DNA of 64,000 nucleotides. It comes from Telopea speciosissima. Taxonomy: Eukaryota; Streptophyta; Magnoliopsida; Proteales; Proteaceae. How positions within the stretch are numbered: position 1 is the first letter of the stretch; each line of letters begins with the position of its first letter. Shown here piece by piece: positions 26,501 to 62,466 of the stretch. A model generated the notes under the pieces. That model saw nothing but the letters and a program-made list of their open reading frames with translations, did not search any database and had not been told where the DNA came from. A program made the position numbers and the translations under genes. The stretch is taken from positions 10,677,563-10,741,562 of the forward strand of contig NC_057922.1 in NCBI RefSeq assembly GCF_018873765.1, given 5' to 3'.

Positions 26501-29500
26501 AAGCTCCACCAATATTACTGATCTCTATTGGGTTAGACAATGGTTCCATTTACTGCATCAAGGGGGACATTGCCCGTGAGCGTATCTCTCGTTTCAAGCT
26601 TCATGTCGAACACATTTCAGACAAGAGCCAGTCATCTATCACAGGCCTTGGGTTCCGAGTTGATGGCCCAGCCCTTCAACTCTTTGCTGTGACTCCGTGT
26701 TCAGTGAGCCTGTTCAGTTTGCAGGAGCAGCCACCTAAGCATCAAACCTTAGATAATATTGGATGTGCTTTAAGTTGTGTCACTATGAGTGATCGCTCGG
26801 TATGCAATTTTGGTTGCTCTTTTAGTATAGTTTTTGTTATATAAAAAAATTAGAGACCAGCATCATGTATCTTAAGCAATTGAGAGTTTTATTCTTGTTA
26901 ATTAATCAGGAGCTTGTTCTTGGACGCCCAGAGGCTGTTTACTTCTACGAAGCTGATGGACGTGGTCCTTGTTGGGCTTTTGAGGGAGAGAAGAAATTTC
27001 TTGGTTGGTTCCGTGGGTACCTATTATGTGTTATTGCTGATCAAAGAAATGGAAAGGTTACTTTTAATATTTATGATTTGAAGAATCGGTTGATTGCCCA
27101 GAGTCTAGTGGTTAGAGAAGTTTCTCACTTGCTTTGTGAATGGGGTAGTATAATTCTTATAATGACTGACAAAACAGCTCTATGCATAGGAGAGAAGGAT
27201 ATGGAAAGCAAGTTAGATATGCTTTTCAAGAAGAATCTGTATACTGTTGCCATCAATCTTGTCCAAAGTCAGCAAGCTGATGCAGCTGCAACTGCTGAAG
27301 TTTTAAGGAAATATGGCGATCATCTATATGGGAAACAAGACTATGATGAGGCTATGGCTCAATATATCCACACAATTGGCCACCTTGAACCTTCATATGT
27401 TATACAGAAATTTCTAGATGCGCAACGTATATACAACCTTACACATTATCTGGAGAAATTACATGAGAAGGGGTTGGCTTCTAAAGATCATACTACTCTT
27501 CTTCTTAACTGCTACACAAAACTGAAGGATGTTGAAAAGCTAAATGTATTCATCAAAAGTGAGGAGGGGATTGGGGAACATAAGTTTGATGTGGAGACTG
27601 CAATTAGAGTGTGTCGTGCTGCGGGGTATCATGAACATGCGATGTATGTTGCGAAGAAGGCAGGTAAACATGAATGGTACTTAAAGATCTTGCTTGAAGA
27701 TCTTGGTAGTTTTCAAGAAGCATTGCAATATATTTCTAGCCTTGAACCCAGTCAAGCCGGGGCCACGGTTAAGGAGTATGGTAAGATTCTTGTGGAGCAC
27801 AGACCAGTGGAGACAATTGAAATACTGATGAGACTTTGTACTGAGGAAGAAGAATCAGCTAAACAAGGGACCTCAAACAACACATTGGTATCCATGTTAC
27901 CTTCTCCTGTTGATTTTCTCAACATTTTCATTCATCACCCACTGTCCCTAATGAGTTTTCTTGAAAAATACATCAGCAAGGTGAAGGATTCACCAGCTCA
28001 GGTAGAAATACACAACACACTGCTGGAGTTGTACCTTTCCTATGATTTGAACTTCCCATCAATCTCACAAGAAAACACTGCTGGAGATTCCAATCTGAGA
28101 GCAAGAAGTGCGAAAGAAGTAGTTAGTATCTCCAAAGTGAAGTCAAGGGAAAGGTTAATAGCTGAGGACAAAGATGTAGATAAGGACAAGGATCATATTG
28201 AAAGACTTGAGAAGGGGCTGCAATTGCTTAAGAGGGCATGGCCATCCAACCTGGAACATCCACTTTATGATGTTGATCTTGCTATAATTCTTTGTGAGAT
28301 GAATGCTTTTAAAGAGGGGCTCTTATTTCTTTACGAGAAGATGAAGCTTTATAAAGAAGTGATTGCTTGCTACATGCAGGCCCATGACCATGAAGGGTTG
28401 ATTGCATGCTGCAAGAAGCTGGGAGGTTCGAATAAGGGAGGAGACCCATCACTTTGGGGAGATTTGCTGAAGTATTTTGGAGAGCTTGGGGAAGATTGCT
28501 CCAAGGAAGTAAAGGAAGTCTTAACTTATATTGAAAGGGATGACATTTTACCACCTATCATTGTTCTTCAGACTCTTTCCCGGAATCCTTGCCTCAGTCT
28601 CTCAGTTGTCAAGGATTATATTGCTCGAAAGCTTGAACAAGAATCAAAGCTGATTGAAGAGGATCGGCGATCTATTGAGAAGTACCAGGTTTGTGTTTCT
28701 AAAAATGTTTTATTTATTTTATCTGTTTGTTTCACTTTATGTGTCACTACGATGAAAAGTGCAAAAGGTTTCAGTATAACCTCTAGGATCTTGATGTAAC
28801 TTGAAGGAGGAGACAAAGAATTGGGCCCATTATTAAGCCCTGGAAGCCATCAGCATTGAGGCAGCCTTTTGGGGGAAGTTTAGTCCAGTTATGGGCCTAA
28901 CTTCCAGTCCATTAAGTGTTCTCTCAATAAGTCCCTGTGTTGGGAAGGACAGCTAGCTTCTATAATTCTTTAGAGAAAAAGAACTCTGTGGGGGAGTGTG
29001 ACCCCTGCACCCAGACACAGGGAGGGGGGGGGGGGATGAAGTGACCGTCCCGCTCCTCAGGAAAGGCGGAAATGCCCGCCCTGTTGATTATTCCACACAC
29101 AGTCTCATTGGTCCCGTGCACAGGGGCCATGCTCCCCCACAGAGAATTCTTCCCTCTTTTCTTTATTAGTAGTTTCTAATTTTTGTTTTGGCAAGATTCT
29201 ACTACATAGCCTAAGTATCTTTCCTTTTATTTGTTACCTGCTGTACAAGTCCCCTAATACTGTGCATTGGACTTCCTTTAGTTGTTTCCTTTATTATTTA
29301 TTCTCTACAGCATATTATAATATTGTAAGGAGCCTTTGAGCTCTCCCCACGATTTAATGAATGAAAGAAAAGCTTGGCTTTTTATGCCATTGTACTGTGA
29401 GATGCAGTGAGAGGTGAGATGCCTTAGGGTTAGTGAGAGGCTGGCCAAGGCCATGGGTGAGAGCCCTTGATCATATCCCCCCTCTTTGTCTACATTCTCT

Positions 29501-32500
29501 TCTTCCTAGTTTCTAATTTTTATACACAGCAACAGAGTTTCTGTTGGAGGCTGTCGAGACCACCCTTGAAGGACTACTAAGGTGCCGTTGATGATAGTCG
29601 TGATACTTAACCTGTCCTATCGAGTTTCATCCATAGCCTGAAGATTGGAATTCAAGTATACCTGCGGTTCCTATCCCTCCATTAACTCAGGCCCTTCTTT
29701 TATTATCTTGTTCTCCTTGTCCTTGGCCTCCTTCAGCAGTAGTTTGAATTATGTAGATGATAGTTTACCAAGAAACAATTCTACAGGAGGATCAATATCC
29801 TGACAAACCAGCAAGTTACAACAAGGACTCCAATGAAGAAACTGAACCGCAGGGTGTATGATTGCCTTCTCCAGTCAACAACTGATGTAATGGCAGCAAG
29901 GTACTTTTCTCAGGAACCACTAAGGATTCCAGCAGCACTAAAAGACCTTCGATTGGATCTTAGACATGCAGCAATCTTGGAACAATGAATGAAAACAGAG
30001 AATCGAATGGGGGGAATAAGAATATAAGATAAGAAGATAGAAAGGAATAAAGGATGGATCGAGCCTCTCACCTCACATAGGACTCTCTCCTTCTCTACTG
30101 TCTCTCACAGCCTCATAGTTGTAAACAACTCTTTTTCTTTTTCATTAAAATATGTTGGGGATTAGACCACTTTCTTATATTTATAATAAAGTAGGTCAGT
30201 TACAAGATCGATGGGGGAATAGAACCTCCCATACGCATGCCCAATCCAAAACAAATCTCTCCCTTACAAAATTAGAAAGTAGAAAAATAGAAATCCACAT
30301 AATGGAAACTACTAACCTATTACAATGAAAATAAAAAGTAAATAAAATAGGAAGTAGATAAGATGTTGAACAGCTTCTATTCCTTTCCTTCATATGCGAG
30401 CTGGCTTGGGCCCACAAAAATCTGGAAAATCTCCATAGATTTCTCTCTGTGCAAGCCAGCCTCCTATCTCCAAAATAACTCCACGCAACAGTCATATGGG
30501 CCCCTCCAGAGCTTCTATTATCCTTCTACCAAAAGGGAGCAATCCACTTCTGAAATCTCTCCACAAAAGGCCAGAATGGGACCCACGATATCTGATAAAT
30601 CTTCCACAGTTTCTTCAATCATGGAAGGACCCTATGGGGCCCACTAAATCTTCTCAAAATTATCTTCAAATAAATCTGATTGAAGGTCATTCTGGGGCAG
30701 AAACATGGGGCCAAATATGGGCCTGAACAGTGCCACGACCACTGTTCACGCAAATAGTACTTTCTGCCTTGAACTGCATCATTGAAGGCCATCCAATGGC
30801 TATAGACCGCGTAGTAAATTTCTAAATCTGAGTCTTTGTTTCTAATTTTATGTCACTATTATAATTGTTGTCTAGCCATCAGATGTGGCTGGATTTTTGA
30901 AGAGTTGAAGGTCTCCTCCAACCATTCCTTCAATGGAAGTAGAGCCCCATCAGAAATGGTCTTAGAGTTATTATTTCTGTTCTCATTAAGTTTCTATTTT
31001 GGGCTTATTCTGTTGCTTCAGTTTCTGGTTCTCCACTGCCGAAAGTGTGGGAACACCTTACTTTTCTTGTTAATTGCTGTTTGAACCCTATTAACGGTAT
31101 ATTGACCAATTCACCCAGAAAAACAGTATATTGACCTTTGATACATGGGTTTCCTTAGTTACTAATCTATACAGCTGGTTTTCATCAGAGTAACCTTGCT
31201 ATGAAGGGTTATTTCAGTCCTTTGACCTGCATATATTCTGTGGGTTAACCTTGTGCCAACAGCCTTGTACTGTTAGCCTTATTATTGGGCTTGTTACTGC
31301 TCTATTGTTAATGTTAAAGCGGAGTTTACATTGCTGTTCATCAATACTATTTGTCCTGTTGTTGGGTTGGGTTGTAAGCTTGCTGTTTAGTGACCCTAGT
31401 CCCATCAGATGTTTGTTGCAGTGACATTTTTTTTTGGGGGGGGGGGTAACATGGTAGTTAAAGGTCTCTGTTACTTACTAAAAAGGTGAAACATAAGGGG
31501 GCATTGCTTCTTAATATGGTAAAAGCTTTGACTGCCGTTGTAAGATGCAGATTGAAATCTTAGAACAGCCATTTAGGGTGTATATGGCAACGTTCAGGGG
31601 AGGAAAAAAAAACAAGTTCTGTTGTTTTTATGTTTTTGGTTTAGAATAAATTTGGAACATAACTTGTATGTGATGTCCGGTTTGTTTTTTGTGCTTTTTT
31701 GGAATGAACCGAGTAAAAAGAACAAATTTCTTGGTCATTGGAGAAACAGATTTAAAGTGGTCTTTAGAAAACAGAAACACAAATTTGAAACAAATGCAAC
31801 CCAATAAACCCGACTCTCTCCCTCTCTCCACCACCACCACTGCCACCCCACCAGCACCATCTTTTCCACCGTTGCTTGTTTGGTTTTATTTTCTCTGGAG
31901 TTTGCTGGGAGTTGTTTGCCTCCTGGGCGCTGCTCCGCTATGCGCTATTCATGTTGCTACTGTAGAGAAGACTGAATTTGAAGATGGTTACATTCCATGT
32001 TTTTGCTTTTCACCGCTGAAGAGACCTATGGGTCACTGCTAACCGCACCAAAACCAGCCCAATAAACCCCACTCTCTCCCTCTCCCCACTACCACCACCA
32101 CCTCCTCTTTCACTGCCACTCCACCAGCACTACCTCTTCCACCGCCATCTCTTCCTCTGCCACCACCACTTCTGTTAATTTGCATTCCATACATGTTTCT
32201 GTTCTTTTTTAGTGGCAAAAATACTTTTTTTTTTTCCTTCCAATTTTACCATTCAAAATTATTTTGTACAGAAATATTCCAAATTAACAGGTGCAAAAAA
32301 TTATTTCTGACTTAGAAATACTAATTTGAAACAGAAACATTGCATACACAGCCTTAATGCCAAATGCTGCAGGTTAAGGACCAACTCCAGTCCACCTTTC
32401 TCAGGAAACTACAAAAGCAAGACTTGGATTGGGTTACGACCCATTACTAAAAAGAGAAACATAAGTAAACAAGTCAAACAGCACTGCCCCTATCCACTTC

Positions 32501-35500
32501 AGGCTGTTAGCAAACCAAAAGGGAGTTGTGTCAACACATTCCTTAGGTTGTCTCGACTCAACACCTCTACTAGCACCATTACGAGCAACCATATTAACAT
32601 CCCAAACCTGCACACCAATCATCCAGACTACTTTTAAGATAAACAATGGAAGAAAAACACTGCCATAGCCAGGAACCAAAAGTATGATCCTTGATGTTGA
32701 TGTAAATATTCCAAATTAATGCATGGCTCCTCCCCGTCACAAAGACTCCCCGCTGTCTTGTTGTCCCTTGTACACGTATCACACATGGAGACATTGGATG
32801 CTGGCAAACATGCCTTAAAACACCCTGAAATGGTCATACGTTCTATCTGGCTAGGGGCCTTTCTCATTCAGTAGTAAACCTTACCAAGACTAGTTGCCTC
32901 AACGAATTGATATGCTTTTGCTTATTGTGACACCGGCGAATGCTGAATACAGAGGAATACAATGAAATCAGAACAAAGCAGGTAGACCAAGTGAGCTTAC
33001 AGAATTAGGGGAATAGTGTAGAGGACAAAGAACCAGGCCCAAAACTAGTTGAGAACCTGGTTCTAATAAGCCCCACGGTTAGCACCCTTTAGTGGACTTC
33101 TAGAAGATTGCACATGGGGTTGTGTGGGTAATGCAAAAATCCACCTCGAACCAGGGAAACCAGCGGGAGATCAATTGCAGCTAGGATCAGCACGATAAGG
33201 AACAAATTGAATAACTAAAATTTTTTTTTAATTGTTATTTTCTATTACATATGAATGGAGAACATAAAGGATAAAAAAGAAAGGAGAAGAAGATAAAGAA
33301 GAGAAGGGGGAAGGGGAGTGGCTCTCTCAGCCACAGCTATCCCAGCTGTTGAAACATGGAATTTCTCTCATAACCGATGGCAACAAGGCCTGAAAATTCT
33401 TTTCTCCAAATCTAATTCGAGTACAACTGATGGGGCCATTATAGCTTGGCCTAGGCTTCACAAAATAGAAAGTTGAAAATTAGAAAGTAATAAAAAAGGA
33501 AACTACTATAAGCCTCTTACAAGAGACTATTGAGGCTTGTACACCAAGTAATCTAAGACTTGACTAAGTAAACTGAAATAAAATTAGAAAGTAAACAAAA
33601 ATAGAAACTTAAGTAAATAGTAACTAACTAAAACAGCAATAAAGTCTGCCTTGTCTTGCTATCTTCAGTGGGGCCCACAGAATCTCAAATATTTGCTTGG
33701 ATTTCCTTCTCCATACCATAGTTGTCAAGGCATCGCCTAGGCATCCAGGCACTTTGGTTGACTTGGGGTAGCTATTAGACATGTAGGTAAGTTTCCAATT
33801 TGAGTTTATTTAGTTTCTATTTTTATTAGTCTAGGTTTTAGTAAGTAATTAGGAGTCTTTATTTGCTGGGTCTTATAAATAGATGTGTAACCAACGATTG
33901 AAGCAGATTTGAGAATGGCATTTGATTGAGTTTTTTATGGTGCCGGTTGGTACATAGCAATGGTCGTGTGACCTCCTTCCTCCTTTTCTGCTTCTTTCTT
34001 TCCTCCCTAGCGAATTACTGCTTCTTCTCTGTTTCTGGTGGGGACAACAGGCCCTCTCTTGGCCTTCTATTACCTTCTCTCCTCTCCTGATATTCTTCTC
34101 TCTTTGTTATTCCTTCTACATCGTTGCTGCTACTCCTGGTTCTGTTCACCCTGTTGCTGTCTAACCTATTGAACAGTAAGAGACTCGATCCAACTCTCTC
34201 ACAAGCTGTTCATTGAATCTGGGGTTTGCAGCGAAGGAAGGCCTGCCATACGCGACCTAACCGTAGAAATCTTTTCGCCTTAGTCATCTTCTGAAGTGTG
34301 GCTAACGCTCACCCATATCTGAACTTTTACCCTACCGCCAGATCCAGTTGGAGGGTCTGAAACATCTCAGATTCTGAGTTGTTGATGCTTGCTGGTGCTG
34401 GATTTATAGTAGGGCTACTGCTGCAATTCATTATCTGAAACCTCAGGTCAAGCCGTGGTGTTGTGAGCGAGAACAGCTAATCCCAAGCAACTCTATCTTA
34501 CCACAGTTTTCTGTTTGTGTATTGAGGTTGAAGATGACCATTCATCCCACGATCCTTTAGTTTTTAACTTTATTCCTTGTGTTGCCAATATACCCCTCCT
34601 TGTGTCCCTTATTACCCTCTATCCCTCGCGTTATAATTGCTTCCAACATTGCCCCCATACAAAAAATACAAAAGACTTTTGTGTCCCAAATCACATCCAT
34701 TTATCAATTTAACCCTTCGGAAATTCTGGTTATTACAAGATTGCTATTACCCTTCTATTATTTGGACTTTTGTTGTTCAGGTGGTTCCACAAGCGATCCG
34801 AAACTGGTTTTGGAACCCCGGATCTGCATCGAGCATTCAAACCGCAATGGATCAACGAAGCACACTGCTCCGCTAGGTCCTGCATTAGAGGCGATGCAGA
34901 TCTCCCAGATCTGAAGATGCTCGCTATTACGCTGCACCTTTCACAGATCAAATCTCGCAGTTGCAACTGCTACTTTGCCTGAGATGGCCGCTCAGCTCTT
35001 GTAGATCTAGAGTTGTTCGCAATTAGGATGGATTTTTCTTCGGTGATGACGACACTGCTCTCACAGGATAGGACGTTTGGAGACATGATGAGGGGGAGGG
35101 GGAGAGGAGATAGGGGTTTATGAAAAGATCACACTTTGTGGAGAGGATCACACACTTGGCGGATGGAAGTTGCAGAGCTATTTTAATGGAGGGATATGAA
35201 AGGTTGGAAAGTGGTGGGGATTGGGGAGAAGCAAAATGTCCCGAGCAGAAAAATGTCTGGCAAATATGAAATTTAGCAGGGAACATTTTACGGAAAAAAT
35301 CTACGTAAAATTTACCAAGGTGTTTTCCGGTAAATGCCCAAGTTTTGGTAAAAATTTCACTAATGAAAATTTTCCAAATAGCAAAACAAACGACGGAAAA
35401 TCTAATTTTACAGTAAAATTTGTTTTACCGATTATTTTACGTCGAAACAAACAGAGCCTTAAGAAAACCTCAAACAGTGTTAAACTTTGTCTTCCCTGGC

Positions 35501-38500
35501 ATAGGAAGTCTTCAGTTATGCATTGAACAAAGTAATCTGCCCCAATTCTTCTCTTACTCTCTTGTTAAATCCTGAAATCTGTGCATTCAGTTCTTTCCCC
35601 AAGGTTGAAATACTATTACATTTCAATATGTCCAAACTTCATGACAGAAAGAAAACTATCATGGTCCGAAGGTATTCTATTAGGTGATCTGAAGAAGAAA
35701 TGGAACATCTAAACACACTTGAGACCCAAACATCTGTAGCAAATGCCAGTGGAGTAAAAGCATAGTTCAAAAAACAAATGGGATATATTTTCAGATTCAT
35801 TCGGACAGAACTGCTCTATTTCAATAAGGTGATTAGCTGGAAATTCTTTAGTTGGAAGCAATGAGAAAAGAACTTTCCAAACAAAATTCTTTATACTGGG
35901 AATGAGAGGCAACTTCCATATTAGTTTCCGGATAAAAATTTGGTCCTGATGCAAGTTGTGGATTATATTCATATCGTGGAGGCCCTTTTGACTAGAAAGA
36001 AACCTGTTTTAGTAACAGAGACGAAGACAAGAATCCTCATTCAGATGGTCAGCATAAGGAAGGAAAGCCATTCAAAGCTCGACATTCCATTCATTCAAAT
36101 TATACAAATTAAATGTTGAACAAAACTGAAACTTTGGACAGGTTGTAAATGTTTTGGTACCAGAAAGTTTGATTCCTCAATAGACGGTATCCAGGGGTTA
36201 GACCATATTGCTGTATAGTCCTTTCCCAACTCCCACACACGTAATTTTGGATATGCCTTTAGATACAAGTCCCTCCCAATACCAAGTATCAGAATTCACC
36301 TAGAACTAACCATTTCAATTTTTTTTTTTAAAAAGTTGCACCCAGAGGTGGTCTTTATTAGATTAGAGTTTTGGAACACAAATAGTCGTGGGAGACTGGG
36401 GTTTCCTAACACCTAAACCACCCCAACTTTTTTGCTGCCAAGTCAAATCCTTACTAGAAGTAAAAAAATATTTTAAAATATTTTTTTTGGCCACTTCCCC
36501 ATAAAAAATTTCTTTCCAAAGAATCAGTTTTTCTCAGCGATGCTTTCATCTTTTTTCACTAAAAAAAGTCCTTTTTACTTTCAAATTTGCATAATCATTC
36601 TCTCAACTCATATTATTACTAAATGCCTCCCACTATTATCAAAATTAATTCCCTGTCTGAAAGCCTCACTGGGTAATCTGATATATTCATTAAATTCACC
36701 ACCTCCTGAACACCAGTCCTATGAAAGATGAAATCCACACAAAATAGAGGGTAGATTGATGGGACATTTTGAGCTGCTTTAATTCCATCTTTCAAGTTCT
36801 TTCCCCCTGCATAAAAATTTAGTCTGAATAGAACTACCATGCAGGACATGGAAAAGGGAAAATGGGGTGACCTTGTTCTAGACCTCTTGGAGCTGGAAAA
36901 AGACTACACTGACAAGTCTATTCCAAATGGTTTTCTGGTACTACTGAGAGCAAGTTTTTGTCTTTTGGCTGGAAGGAGATTGTGGGGTGGGCATTATGCA
37001 TCCTCCATTAGGTGCATCCATCGTTCGAAATTTTGAAGCTGGCAAAACGAAATAGGAAACTGACATCATTTTGCCGAAATTTCGCTTATTTCAGTCATTT
37101 CACTCATTTCGGTCTAAAAAATGCACTGTTTTGTCAGAATTTCGGTCATTTCATTACGGTCTTTCGCTCATTTCGGCTGTTTGCCTCCCAAAATGGCCAA
37201 GCGAAACTCATGGAAAAAATACACTGTTTCGGAAAAATTTCGCTGAAATTTCAGTATTTCACCCATTTTGGTCTTGACCGAAACACTGAAACGAAACGAG
37301 ATCTTGAACCTTGGGTGCATCTGCTGATCTGCATGAGGAGCAGCAGATCTTTGCTCTCTCCAAAAGCCTTAATTTGCTCCAGCGGGAGAAATCTATTCAA
37401 TTGCATTATTTACTGCAACCAAGTACAGCCGTACAAATTCTTTATGCCCTTTCGGAGCGTTTCTACACTTTGGCTTCAAGACATTACGTTCTTTCATATG
37501 TGCAAAATTTTTGAATCATGATAATGATGTCATGCTTCCAATCAAAGAAATGTAAATATGAAAATGCTTGGAATGACTATATTAAAATGTAAAGGAAAGG
37601 GGAGTAACTCCCTTGTTTTTTATAACATTTTACTCTACTCTTCAACATGAGATATGAATTCTTGAGTCTTGAGCTTTAGACTCCTGAAGATTCTCTTATC
37701 TTGAATCAAATAGCTGTAAACTTAAATGACTTGTGAATTTCTGACATCACAGTGTCAAACTAATTACTTGGTTAAGGTCATGTATACATACAGGCTTCTG
37801 TGCTGAATAAAACATCTGAAAGGAGATATGGTCATATGCTGCTTCCTGGGTAGAGGTGAAAAACATAAAAAGTACAAGTTTCTTGTATTTCTTCTGATCT
37901 AGGCATAAAACAACCCTAAATATGTACTGAAACCTTCTTCATCTCATCTGATATCCTAGGTGAAACACCCAACTGTAATTTACAGTACTCTCTCAGGCTC
38001 TTCACATTTTAAGATGGAAATAGGTTATTACATGATGTGTTTATGGTGAAAATATGGGAATTTATCCTAGTGTTGGTATTTTATTCTTTATTTTGCCTTG
38101 GACAACTTATTTTTCTGACTATCAATTTTATGCAGGAAGAAACCTCAGTAATGAGGAAAGAAATCTATGATCTTAGGACCAATGCGAGGATCTTCCAGCT
38201 TAGCAAGTGCACTGCATGCACTTTTACCCTTGATCTCCCTGCAGTCCACTTTATGTGCATGCACTCATTTCACCAACGTTGCCTTGGGGACAATGAGAAA
38301 GAGTGCCCGGAGTGTGCTCCTGAGTACAGATCTGTCCTGGAAATGAAGAGAAGCCTAGAGCAGAATGCCAAAGACCAAGATCGGTTCTTTAACCAAGTTA
38401 AGAACTCGAAGGATGGGTTCTCTGTGGTTGCTGAATATTTTGGGAAAGGCGTGATCAGCAAGACTACCATTGGCCCTAGTGATACTCAAACATCAGGCGT

Positions 38501-38525
38501 AGCTCCCTCCAGTGGTGGCTTGTGA
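23540..38525 (+). CDS. VPS11: VPS11, HOPS/CORVET tethering complex core subunit
   Basis: Five exons: 23540-23761, 26197-26370, 26476-26799, 26910-28688 and 38136-38525, all in phase 0 with GT-AG borders, giving 962 aa (I recall the Arabidopsis protein as about 930). It starts MYQWRKFEFFEEK, typical of VPS11. Residues 1 to about 330 form the predicted N-terminal beta-propeller. About 350-830 is the alpha-solenoid with clathrin-repeat character (FLDAQRIYNLTHYLEKLH). The C-terminal RING-H2 has ligands C858, C861, C874, H876, H879, C882, C890 and C893. VPS11 is a core subunit of the complexes that tether membranes at late endosome and vacuole. It is needed for vacuole biogenesis. The RING exon is separated from the rest by a 9.4-kb intron full of transposon remains. 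A decayed exon 1 copy lies upstream at 17690-18110. Confidence 0.95.
23762..26196. other. VPS11 intron 1 (2.4 kb)
   Basis: Non-coding. Apart from the Tourist-like MITE at 25080-25334 I see only AT-rich sequence. No alternative exon is required to complete VPS11. Confidence 0.6.
25080..25334. mobile_element. Tourist-like (PIF/Harbinger-type) MITE in VPS11 intron 1
   Basis: 255 bp. The ends GGCTACGTTTGGAAGCCAA and (other strand) GACTATGTTTGGAAGCCAA differ at two bases. It is flanked by TTA at 25077-25079 and 25335-25337, the 3-bp duplication of this class. The interior contains a tandemly repeated unit ACATGATGACACAATC..TATGTGTCTATC.. present about three times. Confidence 0.8.
28974..29153. 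mobile_element. GC-rich fold-back MITE in VPS11 intron 4
   Basis: About 180 bp. GAACTCTGTGGGGGAGTGTG and CCCCTGCAC at the left pair with GTGCACAGGGGCCATGCTCC and CCACAGAGAATTC at the right. A C/G-rich loop contains a G run at 29026-29036 and GGCGGAAATGCCCGCC, itself a small palindrome. No convincing target duplication. Confidence 0.65.
29787..29991 (+). other. Unidentified protein-like open stretch in intron 4
   Basis: After a CTACAG acceptor-like site at 29786 one frame is open to a TGA near 29990. It includes TPMKKLNRRVYDCLLQSTTD and MAARYFSQEPLRIPAALKDL. It has a protein-like composition, but I do not recognise the family. Including it would not fit VPS11, whose conserved sequence continues directly at 38136. 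It is most likely a fragment of another gene or element carried in by a transposon. Confidence 0.3.
29995..30800 (-). mobile_element. Possible LTR-type sequence
   Basis: Sequence with the composition of a retrotransposon leader or LTR read on the minus strand (CT-rich block TATCTTCTTATCTTATATTC near 30025, intron-like AT stretches, GGGCCCAC words). A similar arrangement recurs at 33190-33720. No element ends or coding domains were found, so this is a weak call. Confidence 0.25.
31576..32353. mobile_element. Tourist-like element (778 bp) in VPS11 intron 4
   Basis: The left end GGGTGTATATGGCAACGTTC pairs with the right end read on the other strand, GGCTGTGTATGCAATGTTTC. TTA is present on both sides (31573-31575 and 32354-32356). 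The interior carries two diverged direct copies of a CCCACTCTCTCCCTCTC..CACCACCACC block (near 31807 and 32066). No transposase was seen. Confidence 0.65.
32380..32870 (-). mobile_element. LINE relic (zf-RVT region)
   Basis: On the minus strand, pieces in neighbouring frames resemble the zinc-knuckle region near the end of LINE ORF2: FKACLPASNV near 32835-32806, SLCDGEEPC near 32750, and a FGSWLW piece near 32685. Short and frameshifted; moderate support only. Confidence 0.45.
33770..34500 (+). mobile_element. Possible Copia-type LTR or leader
   Basis: The block TTAGTTTCTATTTTTATTAG, then GTCTTATAAATAGATGTGTAA (a TATA box-like TATAAATA near 33886) and a CT-rich leader look like the promoter half of a plant LTR. 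No matching second LTR was found within the window. Confidence 0.35.
35700..36330 (-). mobile_element. LINE relic (zf-RVT region)
   Basis: The minus-strand frame 35972-35709 reads FIRKLIWKLPLIPSIKNFVW, then KVLFSLLPTKEF and CPNESENISHLFFELCF. This is the zf-RVT pattern of plant LINEs (W..KLP..IK.F.W, LPT, C..C..E...H.FF.C). Upstream frames up to about 36330 continue the same ORF in pieces. Not coding. Confidence 0.65.
37015..37320. repeat. CGAAATTTCG-word repeat block
   Basis: A run of words of the TTTCGGTCATTTC / CCGAAATTTCGC type on both strands, bounded by GCATCCATCGTTCGAAATTTTG and CTTGAACCTTGGGTGCATC. It is probably a short transposon whose ends are degenerate. The similar wording in 9023-9474 suggests a related family. 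Confidence 0.4.
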
Positions 38526-41235: not shown

Positions 41236-41667
41236 CTTTTAATATTATTTATTATGAGTGTAACAAAAGGGGCATATGAATTTTCAATGTCATCTTAGGA
41301 CTAAAGAAATTGGACCCAAGTTTCAATGGATATCAAAGAGCACAAATAAATGTTTAAATATTTAGATTAAGCATTAAGAACCAAAACCCTCAAAGAATAA
41401 GAACCAAGAGTACTTGAGACAACCTACAAGGAATAAGAAGAGGTTAACCCTCCACCAAGTATGATAAGAATCCAAAACAACAAACAAGGTATAATATTAC
41501 TGATATTTACATTGAACATGTTTGTTTAATTCTATATGTTCAAGATGCTCAATGTGGAAAATGTTTGATCCCATGTCGTTTTAGATATGGTGATTCGCAT
41601 GATTGGGTGTTTGTAGTTTAATTTGAACCAAGCACATGGTGGTTGTATGTTTTTCTCATTTTAAAAC

Positions 41668-43200
41668 GGATTTTTAACAAATGCCTCCTTAAAAATGCCT
41701 ATTTATTCAAATGTACCTTTACAACTTTTTTAATTATAAATTCCCCTATACTTTTAAAATATTGTAGCACTTTGGTCCAGTCCATTAGTTTGGGATGTTA
41801 GATGTCAGTTTTAAAGAATTTAATGACCAAAATGCCTTATGACAAAAACCCATCAAAATTAAAGAGTAAAATGACCAAATTGCCCTCATCTTTCTCAAAT
41901 CATTTAGTTTAGTCTGGGACGTTAGAGGTTAGTTTCAAATAAACTAATGATCAAAATGCCCTTATGACAAAAACCCATAAAATTAAAGAATAAAATGATT
42001 AAATTGCCTTCATCCCCCCAAATCGTTTAGGTTAGTTTGGGACATTAGTGGTTAGTTTCAAAGAATCTAATGACCAAAATGCCTTTATGACAAAAACCCA
42101 TAAAATTAAAGAATAAAATAATCAAATTGCCCTCATCTTCTCCAAATCCAAATCGTTTAGGGTTTGAAACTGAATCAAACCCTAAACCATTTGAGGAAGA
42201 TGAACCCTAAAATCAAACCTCCAAAATTAAAATTAGTAATACCAATAACCAAAGAGCATAGACAAACCCAGACAAATGCAATAATCCACATTGCTTAAAA
42301 CAAATCAAATAAAAACTCTGAAACGAGAAACCCCAAAAAAATTCACCCTCTAACTACAAGAACCCAATCCAAAACGGAACACTCTTTACCCCCAATAAAC
42401 ACAATTCATCACAGAAATTACCAGCCAATGCCAACCGCCAAGCCCAACAGCTTTCTTCACCACACCTTGGAGGCCAACTAGTACGGATTTCGTCTGATTG
42501 TTTCCAGTGACAACAACTTTAGTGTGACGAGGTAGCACAGACAGCTCCTCGTCGCTACTATCTTCACAGCTGTGCAACTCTGAAAAAAACTCCATTTGAC
42601 AGAACTCTCAACTGCCTCCATCATTTCTACTCCCCAGTAGATGAATTTCTCACAGGAAAAAATCGAAGATGAATCGAATCAGTGATCAAAAACTATTTTT
42701 CATGAAATCGCAGGATCATGCATTGAAAACCCCGTAATCGAAATTCTTCAAGAAACATCAGAAAGCTACAAGAAATTAAGATACCCAGAGGAAAAAAAAC
42801 ACACAGAGAGAGAGAGAGAGGGAGTGTCTCTGAGCGAATAATTTGCTGCGTTTATTCACTGAAGGTACCACTGGAAAATCAAGAAGAATGATGAATTGAT
42901 CAATTTTTGGAGGTTTGATTTTAGGGTTCATCATCCCCAAAATGGTTTAGGGTTTGATTCAATTTCAAACCCTAAATCAAACCCCCAAACGATTTGGAGA
43001 AGATGAGATTTTGATAGGTTTTTGTCAAAGGGCATTTTGGTCATTAGATTCTCCAAAAGTAACCTTCAACGTTACAATCTAACGGATTGGACCAAAATGC
43101 TATAATGTTTTAAAAGTAAGAGAAACTTTACAATTAAAAAAATTACAGGAGTACACTTAAACAGATGGGCATTTTCAGGGAGGGCATTTGTTAAAAACCC
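41668..43200. mobile_element. Pack-MULE (1.5 kb) with perfect 9-bp target duplication
   Basis: TTTTAAAAC at 41659-41667 and 43201-43209 flanks the element. The ends GGATTTTTAACAAATGCC and (other strand) GGGTTTTTAACAAATGCC begin long inverted repeats that include AAACCCTAAA.. and CAAACCTCCAAAA words. The left arm is expanded by about three tandem units of roughly 120 bp (starting near 41788, 41905 and 42030; each has a GACCAAAATGCC.. and a ..AAAAACCCAT word), while the right arm has one. Between the arms, about 42235-42895, lies captured host gene sequence (see 42422-42624). No transposase is present, so movement would depend on an enzyme supplied elsewhere. Confidence 0.88.
42422..42624 (-). 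pseudogene. Captured first coding exon of a SAP30/AFR-like gene
   Basis: On the minus strand, an ATG pair at 42624 is followed, after a one-base shift in a run of T, by CEDSSDEELSVLPRHTKVVV, then TGNNQTKSVLVGLQGVVKKA and VGLGGWHWL. It then meets an intact donor, CTG/GTAATT, at 42422. I recognise this block as the conserved N-terminal region of plant SAP30-like proteins (AFR1/AFR2 type, Sin3-histone deacetylase complex subunits). Upstream (to about 42850) is leader-like sequence with a CTCTCT run and a possible 5' intron donor. Downstream is intron-like sequence. Intron retention means DNA-level capture. The rest of the parent gene is absent. Confidence 0.75.
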
Positions 43201-43209
43201 TTTTAAAAC

Positions 43210-45999: not shown

Positions 46000-46134
46000 A
46001 GCCCACGGAGAGAATGAAGCGCAAAACCCTCGCTTGGTGGTTTCCTCCTTCCGCTTCTTTCTTCCTTCTCTCCGGCCTATTTCGGACCTGGGATTTGCCA
46101 TTTTGCTGAGGCATTTTGGTTGGGATAATCGAAG

Positions 46135-49100
46135 ATGGGATCGGGGATTCTTTCAGATCTCGCGACGGAGATCATAATACCTGTGGCTGCGGTCATTGGG
46201 ATTGTGTTCTCTCTGGTTCAATGGTATTTCGTTTCTCAGGTAAAGCTCTCTCCTGAAAGACAGAATTCATCGAACGACAGTAAGAATGGTTACAACGATT
46301 ACCTTATCGAGGAAGAGGAAGGTCTAAATGATCACAATGTTGTTCTTAAATGCGCCGAAATACAGAATGCCATTGCTGAAGGTTAGATTTTTTAGTCTTA
46401 GATTTTGAGTATCTTCTAATGGTATTTATGATTCTCTTTGGGTAGATCTACTGTTGTTCCCTTTATTATTGGTTTCATTATCCCGAATTCTGTAGATCCT
46501 TGTTTCTATATCTTTTTCTTCTTCTTCTTCTTGGAGGTGTTTTTACTGTTGAAAACTTCGATGATGAATCTTGTCATCCCTCACTCGTTCTATCTGTTGT
46601 ATCCTACTACTTTCTTATTGTTTCAGAATGTAGTTTTTTGTTTAGGAGATTATTATATTAGGGAGTGAACTACCCTGCTTAGGGCAGTAGGGTTTTGTAC
46701 AAAGAATACATGAAAATATTTCGTTTTTGCTTTTGTTCCCACCTCTCCACGCCCCCCCCCCCCCACCAAAAAAAAAAGTATTTTTGCTGCAGAAGATTTA
46801 AGTTTAAGGTTTTTATGTTTTTATGAATTGATCCGTAAAAAAAAAAACGTTTCTTCTGGTTGGAATTTTTTTTTGTTGCTGTTGGTGATATGAGAACTTG
46901 GTGATCTGAAGAAAGGTGTTTCCTTGGGATCTTGTTAGCTCGAGTGGAGGCTCATGAGAATTGACGAGAGTACATGCAGTTTCGCTTCTTATGAACCTTA
47001 TATTTTAGTGGTTCAAAATTTTTTTTTTCTATTAGTTTTGCCATTAATACGGACAAGTTATGTAGAGTGGTCACTGTCTTACAGATTTAAGTGGTTTTTT
47101 CCCCTTTTGTTACAGTAATTTTCTCTTAACTCGTGGACTTTTCTTGTTCAGTTGGTCGTCTAGAGGGTTTTTATGCACCAGTTTGAATATATTTTTCTGT
47201 TTCAACTCATTGAAGACCATGGAATTGGTTTCGGTAATAGAATATAGTGGTCGGTTTATCAAAAGATTAGCTCTTCGTTCTGGTTTCTGCTCGTTTTGGT
47301 GAGGCTAACCGTAGCACTTTCTTTTGTTTGGTCGCTTCAAGGAGTTGGATCTACAGACTTTGCCTTGCAATTATTTATTTAGTTGTCAAGGGTCGTGATC
47401 ATTATTTTACCTTAGATAGCTATACCAGTTTTGCACTTAGGTTGGACTGGAATTACCTTCTGTTTGAGGTGTAGAATTTTTCACCCGTTGGGCCTTTTTT
47501 GCTTTTTTTCGGTTGGGTGGTGGGGTTGTCTTGTGAGCTAATAAGGTATGTTGCCATGTACAGCCAATTATCATGGGTCCTCTGATATTTGAATAGGCCT
47601 TTTTATTTTGCTAATTACTAATTAGTTAGGGTTATCCTCTAGATTGGCTTCCAAGGGACCATACCCTAAAATAATAAGGTATGATGCCATGCAGAGCAAT
47701 TTTTATCTTGGATCATGAGAACTCTTTTGATATCATGGACAAGTCCTGAGACCTCATATGATGGCATGAATTATGACAGATCATTACCAGTATTTGCTCT
47801 GAATCAATCAGTCTAATTTGGGATCTCAATCCCTGGTTTTTATGTTGGGTTCTCAATCATTTTGCATTTTTATATGCTAATTTTTTTTAACATTATCCAA
47901 AATATATGCTGAACTTTGGATTTCTCTAATGTCAAACATGTTCATGGATGTGACAGGAGCAACTTCTTTCCTTTTCACTGAATATCAGTATGTTGGTGTG
48001 TTTATGGTTGCTTTTGCAATTCTTATCTTCCTCTTCCTTGGTTCTGTGGAGGGATTCAGTACCAAAAGTCGACCTTGCGCTTACAGTCCTGAAAAACTCT
48101 GCAAGCCTGCTCTCGCCACTGCTGTCTTCAGTACTGTATCCTTTATCCTTGGTGCTATAACTTCAGTGGTGTCTGGCTTCCTTGGAATGAAAATTGCTAC
48201 CTATGCAAATGCCAGAACAACACTAGAAGCAAGGAAGGGAGTTGGGAAGGCTTTCATCACTGCATTCAGATCTGGTGCGGTCATGGGTTTCCTCCTGGCT
48301 GCCAATGGTCTTTTGGTATTGTACATTGCAATGAACCTCTTCAAGCTGTACTATGGTGATGATTGGGAAGGACTTTTTGAGGCTATCACTGGCTATGGTC
48401 TTGGTGGATCTTCCATGGCCCTCTTTGGAAGAGTTGGTGGAGGAATCTACACTAAGGCAGCTGATGTTGGTGCTGATCTTGTTGGCAAGGTTGAGAGAAA
48501 CATTCCTGAGGATGACCCAAGAAACCCAGCTGTAAGAAACATCACCCATTTGTTAATCCTTTTGCTTACTTGAGGTTCTGCTTCTTAAGCACGTCTCTCA
48601 TTTGTTGTTTCTATATGCTTTCAGGTCATTGCAGACAATGTTGGTGATAATGTTGGGGATATTGCTGGAATGGGATCTGATCTTTTTGGCTCATATGCCG
48701 AGTCCTCTTGTGCTGCACTTGTTGTTGCTTCCATCTCCTCTTTTGGGATTGACCATGACTGGACAGCTATGTGTTATCCATTGCTCGTTAGTTCTATTGG
48801 TATTGTAGTGTGCTTGATCACCACCCTCTTTGCAACCGACTTCTTTGAAATCAAGGCTGTCAAGGAAATTGAGCCTGCATTGAAGAAGCAACTCATTATC
48901 TCGACTGTTCTGATGACAATTGGAGTTGCACTTGTTAGTTGGCTCGCGCTCCCTCCATCGTTCACAATCTTCAATTTTGGAACTCAGAAGGTTGTGAAGA
49001 ACTGGTGAGCAACTATCACTTGTCCTGCTCATTTGTTTGTTGAATGATTAACTGAGGTGTTATTAATAATACATAAAATTTGTTTAGCATTGGAGTTAAT

Positions 49101-52550: not shown

Positions 52551-54597
52551 TTAAACTTTGGCCCAGTTAATTGCTCTCTTTCCTTGTGAGTAGCTACGGT
52601 TGAATTCTTTTTCATAGTCTTTCACCTTCACCTTTCTGAACAACCTGGGCCTAACCTCATCGATCAACGCATCTGCTGGTTCGATCTCTTTCACAATTTC
52701 TAGTAGGTAGAACATGGCCAAAGAGATTCTTTCCCTATCAGGATTTGTTAACACCCTATGCATTGAGCTCTTGAATATTCCATTGCTCATTATCTGCATG
52801 AATCAGTTCCAAAATTTCCACAAATATCTCAAGTACCTGAATTAAGTTTGTAAGAGAAAAAAGGGCAAGTGCTCTGGCTGATGTATCAACCTGGAAATAT
52901 CCTTGTTGAAATCATAAATGAAGGCTGCCTCCCAAGCTGATGTGTACAATATTATAAGAAAGAAAAGGGACAGGAAAATATACCTCTGTTTGATCTGCTA
53001 CATTGATAAGTAGAGCATAAGGGACGATGGGAACTTTGATCCATTGGCCATCTTTTAGGACTTGCAGTCCTTCCACTTCTGGGTCTTGCAAGACGATAGT
53101 AATTAAGCCTCCATCAGTATGAGGTCTGATCCCATAAACAAGATCGGGCTTCGAACAAGGAGGGTAGTAGTTAAACCTTGCATAAATTCTGTACTGATCA
53201 CCAAGCTGGTTCACAAAGTAATTCTCTTCTAGACCCAACACCCTTGCCATCGCCTTGATAGTGGCCTGGGCTACCAAACTTGTCTTCATGCTATATTCAT
53301 GCAAGATTTCTCTGCAATTGTCATGGTTAAAGATGGAGTAAGTATAAGGCTTATAATCCTTTCTTCAATTAAGGGAATATATGTAACATCTCATTGTTAG
53401 GATTTTTTTTTTCAAATTTGGAAAGTATCTTTCCACCTTGAACTAAACCTTCATCCAACCATTCTTTTTGTGTTTCTTTACTGATGGACATCATTTTCTG
53501 TATCTCTTTGAAAGCAATAAATCTAAGCAGACAATATGAGCACTTATTACAGAATGGAGGCCCAGGGGAAACTCTACTCTAAAGAAGGACACCAACAGTG
53601 CTACTGCAATCCTTGTGGATTCCTCTATTCCAGCTTAGTCATTCTGCCTCTATTACCCGATCTACTCCCCAAGGAGAGAGATCCAAAGAAAGCCCAGAGA
53701 ATCAGAGATAGAGCTGCTAATCAGGCATATATTCTTGGTCTAGAACCCCAACAACACATCATGGTCGACGATGCCCTCTCGATGACCAGTTGCTGAGAAC
53801 CAAGCTCCAGAGCTCCCCTGTAGGACATAGAGACGAGGCTCAAGAAAGCCATGGCAGCTGAACCTGAGCTGCCCTAAGTATCCTACTGACTCCTGATGGA
53901 TTCCTTGGTGTTACAGTTGGGTAAGCCATACATCAAACATTAACCATGCATTTAGCAATATGAGATGCGCTAATGAAAGCACCTGAAGCGAACAGGATTG
54001 TCGGGCCAATAGCGGAGTTTCCTCTGGTTTTCTGGTCGGACTAAGAGGTAGAGTCGATCAGACCAGTTAAGAACCTGATCGTCTGAAACAACACTATCAG
54101 CCCCATACGATTCAAGGCTGCCATCAACTCCAGCGTACTTCAGTTTCTCTTCCGTCGGAAGATCAAAGAACCCTTTTGCAACGTTGCGCAAGTCATCAAG
54201 GAGAGAGCTTGGAATCCCATGTCCAATTGCCTGAAATTTCATAAACAAATCTAGTGGGGCCTTTTTATTTCTATAATAACTAAAAGAACTTTTATATCTG
54301 TAAGAGAAGGAGAGTAGACGAAACACTTCAAATTAAAACAGTGTTAATGAGTACCTGGAAGAAACCCCAAGAACGGAGTGCAGATCCAAGCTTCTCCATC
54401 TCTGCTTCTTTTTCATTTGCGGGTGTTGAAGGAGAGGATAGGAGTTGGAGATCTACAGTTGGGATTGAAGAAGAGAAAGAAGGATTGCCATCGATGATTT
54501 CGTTGTGATCAGAGTCTCTGATGATGTATCTCGGCGGTGGTTCACTGCCGTTGACTACGGCAAGTTCCTGTACGGGCTTTCCCAGCTGTGACGACAT
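52551..54597 (-). CDS. 2-oxoglutarate/Fe(II)-dependent dioxygenase, copy A
   Basis: Minus-strand exons: 54597-54355, 54230-53983, 53311-52984 and 52793-52551, with GT-AG borders, giving 353 aa. It has an N-terminal DIOX_N region (IPTVDLQLLSS at about 45-55, then the exon 2 start GHGIPSSLLD) and a C-terminal oxygenase core. Iron ligands are H228 and D230 (PHTDGG) and H285 (MHRVLTN). R295-x-S297 (RIS) is the 2-oxoglutarate carboxylate site. Such plant soluble DOXC enzymes act in specialised and hormone metabolism. The layout is closest in my memory to SRG1, LBO and the benzylisoquinoline demethylase relatives, but the substrate cannot be told. The start MSSQLGKP aligns with copy B after its longer N-terminus. 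All key residues are intact. A MITE lies about 210 bp upstream of the start codon. Confidence 0.92.
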
Positions 54598-60138: not shown

Positions 60139-62187
60139 TTAAGCTTTGGCCCAGTCAATTGCTCTCTTTCCTTGTGAGTAGCTCCGGAAGAATTCTTCTT
60201 CATAGTCTTTCACCTTCACCTTTCTGAACAACCTGGGCCTAACCTCATCGATCAACACATCTGCTGGTTCGATCTCTTTCACATTTTCTGGTGCGTAGAA
60301 CATGGCTAAAGAGATTCTTTCTCTTTCAGGATTTGTTAACACCCTATGCATTGGGCTCTTGAATATTCCATTGCTCATTATCTGCAAGAATCAGTTCCAA
60401 AATTTCCACAAATATCTCAAGTACCTGAATGAAGTTTGTAAGAGAAAAAAGGACAAGTGATCTGGCTGATATATCAACCCGGACATATCCTTGTTGAAAC
60501 CATAAATGAAGGCTGCCTCCCAAGCTGATGTGCACAATAGTACAAGAAAGAAAAGGGACAGGAAAATATACCTCTATTTGATCTGCTACATTGATGAGCA
60601 GAGCATAAGGGACGATGGGAACTTTGATCCATTGGCCATCTTTTAGGACTTGCAGTCCTTCCACTTCTGGGTCTTGCAAGACGATGGTAATTACGCCACC
60701 ATCAGTATGAGGTTTGATCCCATAAACAAGATCGGGTCTCGAACAAGGAGGGTAGTTGTTAAACCTTGCATAAGTTCTGTCCTGATCGCCAATCTGGTTC
60801 ACAAAGTAATTCTCTTCTAAACCTAACACCCTTGCCGTCGCCTTGATAGTGGCTTGGGCTACCAAACTTGTCTTCATGCTATATTCATGCAAGATTTCTC
60901 TGCAATTGTCATGGTTAAAAATGGTGTTAAGTATAAGGTTTATAATCCTTTCTTCAATTAAGGGAATATATGTAACTCTCATTGTTAGGATTTTCTCAAA
61001 TTTGGAAAGTATCTTTCCACCTTGAACTAAACCCCCATCCACCCATTCTTTTTGTGTTTCTCTACTGATGGACATCATTTTCTGTATCTCTTTGAAAGCA
61101 ATAGATCTAAGCAGACAAAATGAGAACTTATTACAGAAAGGAGGCCCCAGGGGAAACTCTACAGCAAAGAAGACCCCAACAGTATTACTGCAATCCTTGT
61201 GGATTCCCCTATTCTAGCTTAGTCATTCTGCCTCTGTTACGCGATCTAGTCCCCCAGGAGAGAGATCCAAAGAAAGCCCAGAGAATCAGAGATGGAGCTG
61301 CCTAATCAGGCATACTTTCTTGATCTAGAAACCCATCAACACATCATGGTCGTGAATCCCCCTCGATGACCAGTTGCTGAGAGCCAAGCTCCAGAGCTCC
61401 CCTGCAGGACATAGAGACGGCTCAAGAAAGCCATGACAGCTGAACCTGAGCTGCACTAAGTATATCCTACTGACCATGGTGTTACAGTTGGGTAAGCCAG
61501 ACATCAAACATTAACCGTGCATCTACCAATATGAGATGAGTTATAGTGAAAGCACCTGAAGCGAACAGGATTGTCGGGCCAATAGCGGAAATTCCTCTGG
61601 TTTTCTGGTCGGACTAGGAGGTAGAGTCGATCAGACCAGTTAAGAACCTGATCGTCTGAAACAACACTGTCAGTCCCATACGAGTCAATGCTGCCATCAA
61701 TTCCAGTGTACTTGAGTTTCTCTTCCGTCGGAAGATCAAAGAACCCTTTTGCAACGTTGCGCAACTCATCAAGGAGAGAGCTTGGAATCCCATGTCCAAT
61801 TGCCTGAAATTTCATAAACAAATCTAGTGGGGCCTTTTTATTTCTATAATAACTAAAAGAACTAATATCTGTAAGAGAAGGAGAGTAGACGAAACACTTC
61901 AAAACTGTATTAATGAGTACCTGGAAGAAGCCCCAAGAACGGAGTGCAGATCCAAGCTTCTCCATCTCTGCTTCTTTCTCATTTGCAGGTGTTGAAGGAG
62001 AGGATAGGAGTTGGAGATCGACAGTTGGGATTGAAGAAGAGAGAGAAGGATTGCCATCGATGGTTTCGTTGTGGTCACCGTCTCTGATTATGTATCTCGG
62101 CGGTGGTTCTCTGCCGTTGATTGCTGCAAGTTCCTGTACGGGCTTTCCAAGTTGCGGTTCTTGGTCAGAGCCAAGACTTGAGGCCAT
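60139..62187 (-). CDS. 2-oxoglutarate/Fe(II)-dependent dioxygenase, copy B
   Basis: Minus-strand exons: 62187-61921, 61803-61556, 60899-60572 and 60381-60139, GT-AG, 361 aa. Exons 2-4 have exactly the lengths of copy A (248, 328 and 243 bp). Exon 1 is 24 bp longer because the start is MASSLGSDQEPQLGKP. An in-frame ATG at 62307 exists upstream, but that extension is not conserved in copy A, so 62187 is preferred. The iron ligands H236, D238 and H293 and the R303-x-S305 motif are intact. Protein differences from copy A are few and scattered (for example FNNYPPC versus FNYYPPC, YAPENVKEIEP versus YLLEIVKEIEP). Both copies look functional, with the same inferred class and unknown substrate. Confidence 0.92.
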
Positions 62188-62247
62188 GTTGCCTCTCAAC
62201 TTCAGTAAATGATCATGACCACTGCATGCGGAGAATTTATAGCCTTT
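62172..62247. repeat. Start-region repeat 1 of dioxygenase copy B
   Basis: AAGACTTGAGGCCATGTTG.. then AGTAAATGATCATGACC and GGAGAATTTATAG. This recurs in diverged form at 62645-62725 (AAGACTTGAGGACATGTTG, AATAAATGATCATTGACGG, GAAGAATTTATGG). The second copy is closer to the start region of copy A. It therefore looks as if the initiation region of B was duplicated and the outer copy was left behind upstream. Confidence 0.65.
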
Positions 62248-62308
62248 CTTATTTCCAATTTTGGCATCTTTCCCTGTTCCTACCTTTCCGGGAGGGCACG
62301 AGGGCAAC

Positions 62309-62375
62309 CAGACACATGGGGCGGGATGGGGCCGGGCAGGGCCGTCATTTTGGGATGCCCATCCCCATGTATCTG
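62309..62375. repeat. Short hairpin in the copy B promoter
   Basis: CCAGACACATGGGGCGGGATG pairs with CATCCCCATGTATCTGG around a GC-rich loop containing GGGCCGGGCAGGGC. It is probably the core of a GC-rich fold-back element, like the one upstream of copy A but at a different place. Confidence 0.55.
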
Positions 62376-62466
62376 GACAGAAAATATAAGCGGATCAAGG
62401 AAATCAGGCAATTTAAATTTAAATTGACTTTGACTCCATTTATTTCTATGGGTACTGGACCATGAT

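Follow-up and report, generated by a model that had tools for sequence, protein, structure and literature searches.

Pack-MULEs are reportedly known since Jiang et al. 2004. As described in passages of PMC3310237, those of rice, tomato and Arabidopsis have a target-site duplication (TSD) of 9-11 bp, terminal inverted repeats (TIRs) of 100-500 bp, no transposase and a fragment of a host gene. The element that we analyze here is like them. It has a TSD in the 9-11 bp range (9 bp, TTTTAAAAC on both sides), long TIRs (296 bp on the right, expanded to 559 bp on the left), no transposase coding and a host-gene fragment whose parent lies elsewhere without the repeats; measured against these passages, it differs from other Pack-MULEs in details only (the parent gene, the source pair and the tandem unit of the left arm). 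It is also like the gene-carrying MULEs with additional tandem or solo TIRs that are treated in the same text (PMC3310237), in that extra terminal-repeat sequence is present at one end. In the MULEs of Ferguson and Jiang 2012, as the excerpts of PMC3310237 have it, similarity between the extra and the outer TIR extends over 100 bp or more, whereas here a 123-bp unit is repeated on one side only and overlaps the outer 192-bp arm only partly, in its inner part. Gene-carrying Pack-TYPE elements with cargo from several loci are known as well, according to part of PMC8903248.

The gene that supplied most of the cargo also has described relatives. Arabidopsis AFR1 and AFR2 act in histone deacetylase complexes that dampen FT, and sections of PMC3760768 report that they were found by a C-terminal SAP30 region, outside which they have little similarity to yeast Sap30. 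Like AFR1 and AFR2 as presented there (PMC3760768), the parent gene on contig C5 carries a C-terminal SAP30 Sin3-binding region; unlike them, the captured fragment is the N-terminal part only.

Gene-carrying transposons are well known in plants, and this element, a real two-source Pack-MULE, is an ordinary though clear example. It adds one case, a 5′ end, to the catalogue of transposons that copy gene parts. New over an earlier, sequence-only reading of the same DNA are the parent locus, a second source of cargo, a frameshift made by two insertions and the evidence of decay.

Ends, arms and target-site duplication

The window, the whole stretch of 64,000 nucleotides that was analyzed, was placed by genome search at C7:10677563-10741562 of an 823-Mb assembly. 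The sequence-only reading had described a complete non-autonomous Mutator-like element with a perfect 9-bp TSD and long inverted repeats, and both the ends and the TSD are exactly as it claimed (Table 1). A 9-base match at exactly the TSD spacing occurs at one of 62400 window positions, which is the element itself; with 20 bases of slack either way, such a match is found at 19 of 12460 sampled window positions. Frames wholly inside the element reach 73 aa at most, and we find no transposase coding in them. The genome contains at least 150 matches to the transposase profile PF10551 (best 150 of 828 candidates scored), none of those listed being at the element site.

Table 1. Features of the element and its cargo, in window coordinates
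Feature	Position	Strand	Basis or remark
Complete non-autonomous MULE, 1533 bp	41668..43200	.	Ends, arms, TSD; terminal-repeat family elsewhere in genome
Target-site duplication, left copy TTTTAAAAC	41659..41667	.	
Target-site duplication, right copy TTTTAAAAC	43201..43209	.	
Left arm, terminal inverted repeat expanded to 559 bp	41668..42226	+	
123-bp arm unit, 2.9 tandem copies	41785..42148	+	None inside 18 siblings (TRF)
Right arm, terminal inverted repeat, 296 bp	42905..43200	-	
Cargo, 678 bp	42227..42904	-	Bounded by inner arm ends; matches elsewhere
Second-source piece, 77 bp	42828..42904	-	Match on contig C8; absent from 1 kb upstream of parent
Captured DNA upstream of parent start codon, leader-like	42625..42827	-	Parent alignment, 11/203 columns differ
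Captured first coding exon, 203 bp (201 bp in parent model)	42422..42624	-	ATGATG start kept, frame broken
GT splice donor of intron 1	42420..42421	-	Identical to parent
Captured start of intron 1	42227..42421	-	Parent match fades at arm via shared T bases
69-codon frame from second ATG	42386..42595	-	Exon block in original frame, runs into intron

The two arms of one MULE are not necessarily identical at insertion. Here, the outer 192/193 bp agree at 156 of 189 positions, and the inner arm parts (42132-42226 vs 42905-43007) agree at 87 of 93. The inner parts are more alike than the outer (Fisher p 0.011), the reverse of what conservation of the ends would lead one to expect; one arm side may, for example, have been copied from the other when the cargo was captured. 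The left arm reaches its length because the 123-bp unit is present 2.9 times. This array may have arisen by slippage or by gain of extra arm sequence. No tandem array was found inside 18 sibling elements (TRF, period at least 60); one array, at sibling L018, lies outside that element.

Sources of the cargo

A genome search with the cargo (9/9 candidates scored) finds this cargo once, in the window itself. A locus on contig C5 (C5:9953445-9954058) matches it at 91% over query 78-678; in window terms, the 91% identity spans 42217-42827, from the leader across exon 1 and its splice donor into intron 1. Two further loci match, C4:15441417-15442019 at 79% and, in the exon part of the cargo, C1:83103827-83103975 at 77%, and both carry exon series of AFR-like genes. 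Among the nine candidates only the C5, C4 and C1 matches cover exon sequence, and the lower similarity of the C4 and C1 genes favors C5 as the parent. The smaller matches are three 44-45-base places on C4, C6 and C9, at 91-95% to the intron part of the cargo, and a 97% match of 33 bases to C10, close to the CT-rich leader. The 8-kb C5 parent locus contains no match to the arms.

Downstream of the C5 match, a genome profile search places PF13867 over its cut-off at C5:9956901-9956984. Six exons spliced by GT/AG give an open protein of ~220 aa, with several border choices possible, and this protein scores 75.6 bits against PF13867 (cut-off 22.2). With a SAP30 Sin3-binding domain in its later exons, the parent is a plant AFR/SAP30-like gene, and one that appears intact. 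The sequence-only reading called for a parental locus sharing exon plus intron sequence, and the C5 locus, with its SAP30 domain downstream, is that locus. The U-box 62/63 family was considered as the parent and ruled out: PF13867 is well over its cut-off in the spliced C5 protein, PUB62-63_C is below its own (21.6 bits, cut-off 27.1) and a U-box domain is absent.

The captured stretch had been read as the N-terminal block of a SAP30/AFR-like protein. It does correspond to the N-terminal part of the parent; the SAP30 domain itself lies on later exons that were not captured, and Pfam gives no PF13867 match in the captured peptide (only PUB62-63_C, E 0.044, below cut-off). We take the captured block to be kin to AFR1 and AFR2. 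Relatives of the peptide were not found in plasmids, prokaryote genome contigs or viral contigs, a search of solved structures gave no real match (two hits, E 1.6 and 2.9), and a text search of the literature for peptide strings of the exon block found nothing. A literature search for Pack-MULE together with SAP30, in that wording only, also found nothing.

The rest of the cargo has another origin. Positions 42830-42902 match C8:23863615-23863691 at 87% (cargo query 3-75, 73 bp). Because 42828-42904 is not from the C5 gene and 73 bp of it match C8, the cargo has two sources. This 77-bp piece is found only at C8 and in the element (2/2 candidates scored), and a 41-base pattern taken from C8, with up to 3 mismatches allowed, occurs at C8 only. 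The piece was also compared, as possible diverged upstream DNA of the parent, with the kilobase upstream of that gene; this was rejected, the score being 18 and 104 of 200 shuffles being as good.

Inverted arms (76 nt, 79%) flank the C8 copy, and C8:23863337-23864430 looks like a different inverted-repeat element, adjoining an alpha/beta-hydrolase gene. An 8-bp duplication, GATAATTT, fits the ends of the C8 element; it is weak as evidence of a TSD because two other perfect 8-bp pairs appeared among the end choices scanned. Either element could have copied the piece from the other, or both could have taken it from a third, unseen source.

With the parent and the match to the second piece in the same genome, the breakpoints can be read at base level. 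On the intron side the parent has AATTATAATTTTTT and the element AATTTTAATTTTGG, with about four T common to donor and arm, and the leader-side junction falls within a CT/CA-rich tract of the parent. Such short shared bases would fit template switching, which is modeled in part of PMC8277862. The G+C content is 0.483 in the exon, 0.392 in the whole cargo, 0.309 and 0.345 in the arms, and 0.323 and 0.316 in the 1-kb flanks; in rice, MULEs are reported to favor GC-rich sequences (PMC4858842). The captured host DNA had been put at about 660 bp; the capture is real, and the length of the cargo is corrected to 678 bp.

Sibling elements and decay

The terminal repeats belong to a family of many mobile copies. 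Left-arm parts plus cargo as a query give at least 108 genome matches (best 40 of 1228 candidates scored), and the outer right arm gives at least 40 (best 40 of 1182 candidates scored), one of which is the window itself. We fetched 18 sibling elements, picked as best matches. Their TSDs are perfect over 8-9 bp in three, with one mismatch in eight, two in two and five in one, and four of the 18 have no recognized pair of ends. Interiors were usable in 8 of the 18, the other 10 being left out because inner matches blurred the boundaries. The siblings examined hold other cargo: at E 1e-3 the eight interiors have nothing in common with the window cargo, and they share at most 73 bp with each other, at or near the edges.

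The cargo of sibling L020 (C4:30729500-30731500) is present in at least four copies, 97-100% identical, all inside a C4 stretch of ~263 kb, and parts of this cargo have 91-96% matches on other contigs (both from the best 40 of 74 candidates scored). The family thus includes young multi-copy elements with composite-looking cargo, and the copies on C4 suggest recent local amplification. An autonomous partner with the same ends was not found; the one PF10551 transposase locus that was read lies ~6 kb from a sibling and lacks ends of this type.

The window element has decayed. Its arms match the consensus of 30 sibling arms at 158/190 and 154/190 positions, and sibling arms match it at a mean of 0.898 (minimum 0.827), a comparison that favors the siblings, the consensus being built from them without the window arms. 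By this measure the window element has some of the more decayed arms in the family. Of the changes in its two arms, C>T or G>A accounts for 25 of 32 and 22 of 36, a pattern that would fit deamination of methylated cytosine.

The captured gene part is also altered. The conserved block, leader-like stretch and GT donor described in the sequence-only reading are present, on the minus strand, and the parent gene model uses this donor. Divergence from the parent is alike in the leader (11/203), the exon (16/201, of which 4 columns beside the insertions depend on the alignment) and the intron (13/193). The earlier account of a single base shift in a T run needs amending, as the exon has two 1-bp insertions relative to the parent, one extra A in an A run and one extra T in a T run, through which the frame from ATGATG is lost. 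Its claim of an open frame from a second ATG stands: the frame that starts at this ATG, at 42595, keeps the original phase of the exon block and, with 69 codons, extends into the intron. The same ATG is present in the parent, where it is out of frame, and it is in frame in the element only because of an insertion.

Exon changes polarized with the C4 outgroup include 4 non-synonymous and 0 synonymous on the capture branch, and 1 non-synonymous and 3 synonymous on the parent branch (Fisher p 0.14, not significant). The polarized changes lean toward an absence of constraint, though not significantly. The differences that could not be polarized are 0 non-synonymous and 3 synonymous, and since all three are synonymous, there may be weak constraint.

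Alternative readings and genomic site

We consider it almost certain that the element is a two-source Pack-MULE that captured DNA from the C5 gene and DNA shared with C8, was inserted and has since decayed. A non-autonomous Mutator-like element with ~300-bp terminal repeats would have picked up DNA, probably by template switching in repair or replication. About 600 bp would have been taken from the AFR/SAP30-like gene on C5 (leader-like DNA, exon 1, donor and the start of intron 1), and the 77-bp stretch common to C8 would also have been acquired. Transposase supplied in trans may then have moved the element to its site between a VPS11 and an H+-pyrophosphatase gene, giving the 9-bp duplication. 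We infer that decay came later; the arms were probably methylated and silenced, as the C-to-T changes suggest, and the captured exon lost its frame. Most likely the element has no present protein function and is at most a source of small RNA.

Such RNA could make the element a working regulatory locus, in which transcripts from the arms give small or antisense RNA that silences the C5 parent in trans. Of the 658 cargo 21-mers, 129 have a perfect match in the parent locus, in runs of up to 55 nt; 95 of these 129 belong to the leader-like part plus exon, upstream of the donor, and the C4 paralogue has only 3. Gene-specific silencing, like the antisense or decoy RNA suggested in the sequence-only reading, is therefore possible in principle. 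Small RNAs from Pack-MULEs and siRNA silencing of donor genes are reported in parts of PMC8277862 and PMC13317346. Against this reading, the arms are decayed by C-to-T changes, the frame is lost, and the exon substitutions have no significant sign of constraint. An Rfam scan of the window at gathering scores detects no RNA family, which says little on siRNAs. Because of the decay we judge silencing of the parent unlikely. The more specific version, in which the captured leader and exon would give rise to small RNAs that act in trans on the C5 parent and hardly on the C4 paralogue, has a slightly slimmer chance still. If it were true, one of the paralogous genes would be tuned by whether a plant carries the insertion, and the Arabidopsis relatives of this AFR/SAP30-like parent are repressors of flowering. 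Only a regulatory effect of the captured piece on its parent, which encodes a relative of the FT-dampening Arabidopsis AFR proteins, would give the element greater weight.

It is very improbable that a small protein in competition with AFR is expressed from the 69-codon frame. No stop interrupts this frame before the donor, and the conserved block is nearly unchanged, but the block has no SAP30 Sin3-binding match, all 4 of the polarized capture-branch changes are non-synonymous, and the ATG, out of frame in the parent, is in frame in the element only through an insertion. We give next to no credence to the cargo being an AFR gene duplicate, segmental or retro, with transposon ends around it by chance. 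The cargo does contain leader-like DNA, exon and intron, as a genomic duplicate would. Against this reading, the retained intron sequence means that it is not a retrocopy, the parent-like stretch ends on one side at an inner arm end and on the other at the 77-bp C8 piece followed by the arm, a perfect TSD lies outside the arms, no further AFR exons were found in the window, and the tblastn and cargo searches show no larger duplicated C5 block around the element. In a tblastn search of the window with an AFR-like query, no later AFR exon was found; two frames match at the element site, and the rest of the matches listed have at most 21.6 bits. The exon block does not belong to an intact gene at this site, in line with the sequence-only reading, and genes for VPS11 and an H+-pyrophosphatase flank the element that we interpret as a Pack-MULE.

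The last coding frame of VPS11 ends at 38525, and the first coding frame of the H+-pyrophosphatase is 46129-46386, read by eye, with later exons found by Pfam. The coding parts of VPS11 found by Pfam (28799-38013) are ~9 kb apart, which may mean that exons were missed, that an intron is long or that a block was inserted. Farther along the window, on the minus strand, 2-oxoglutarate dioxygenase frames occur in two sets that resemble each other (52912-54332 and 60344-62394), either a tandem gene pair or a gene and a fragment.
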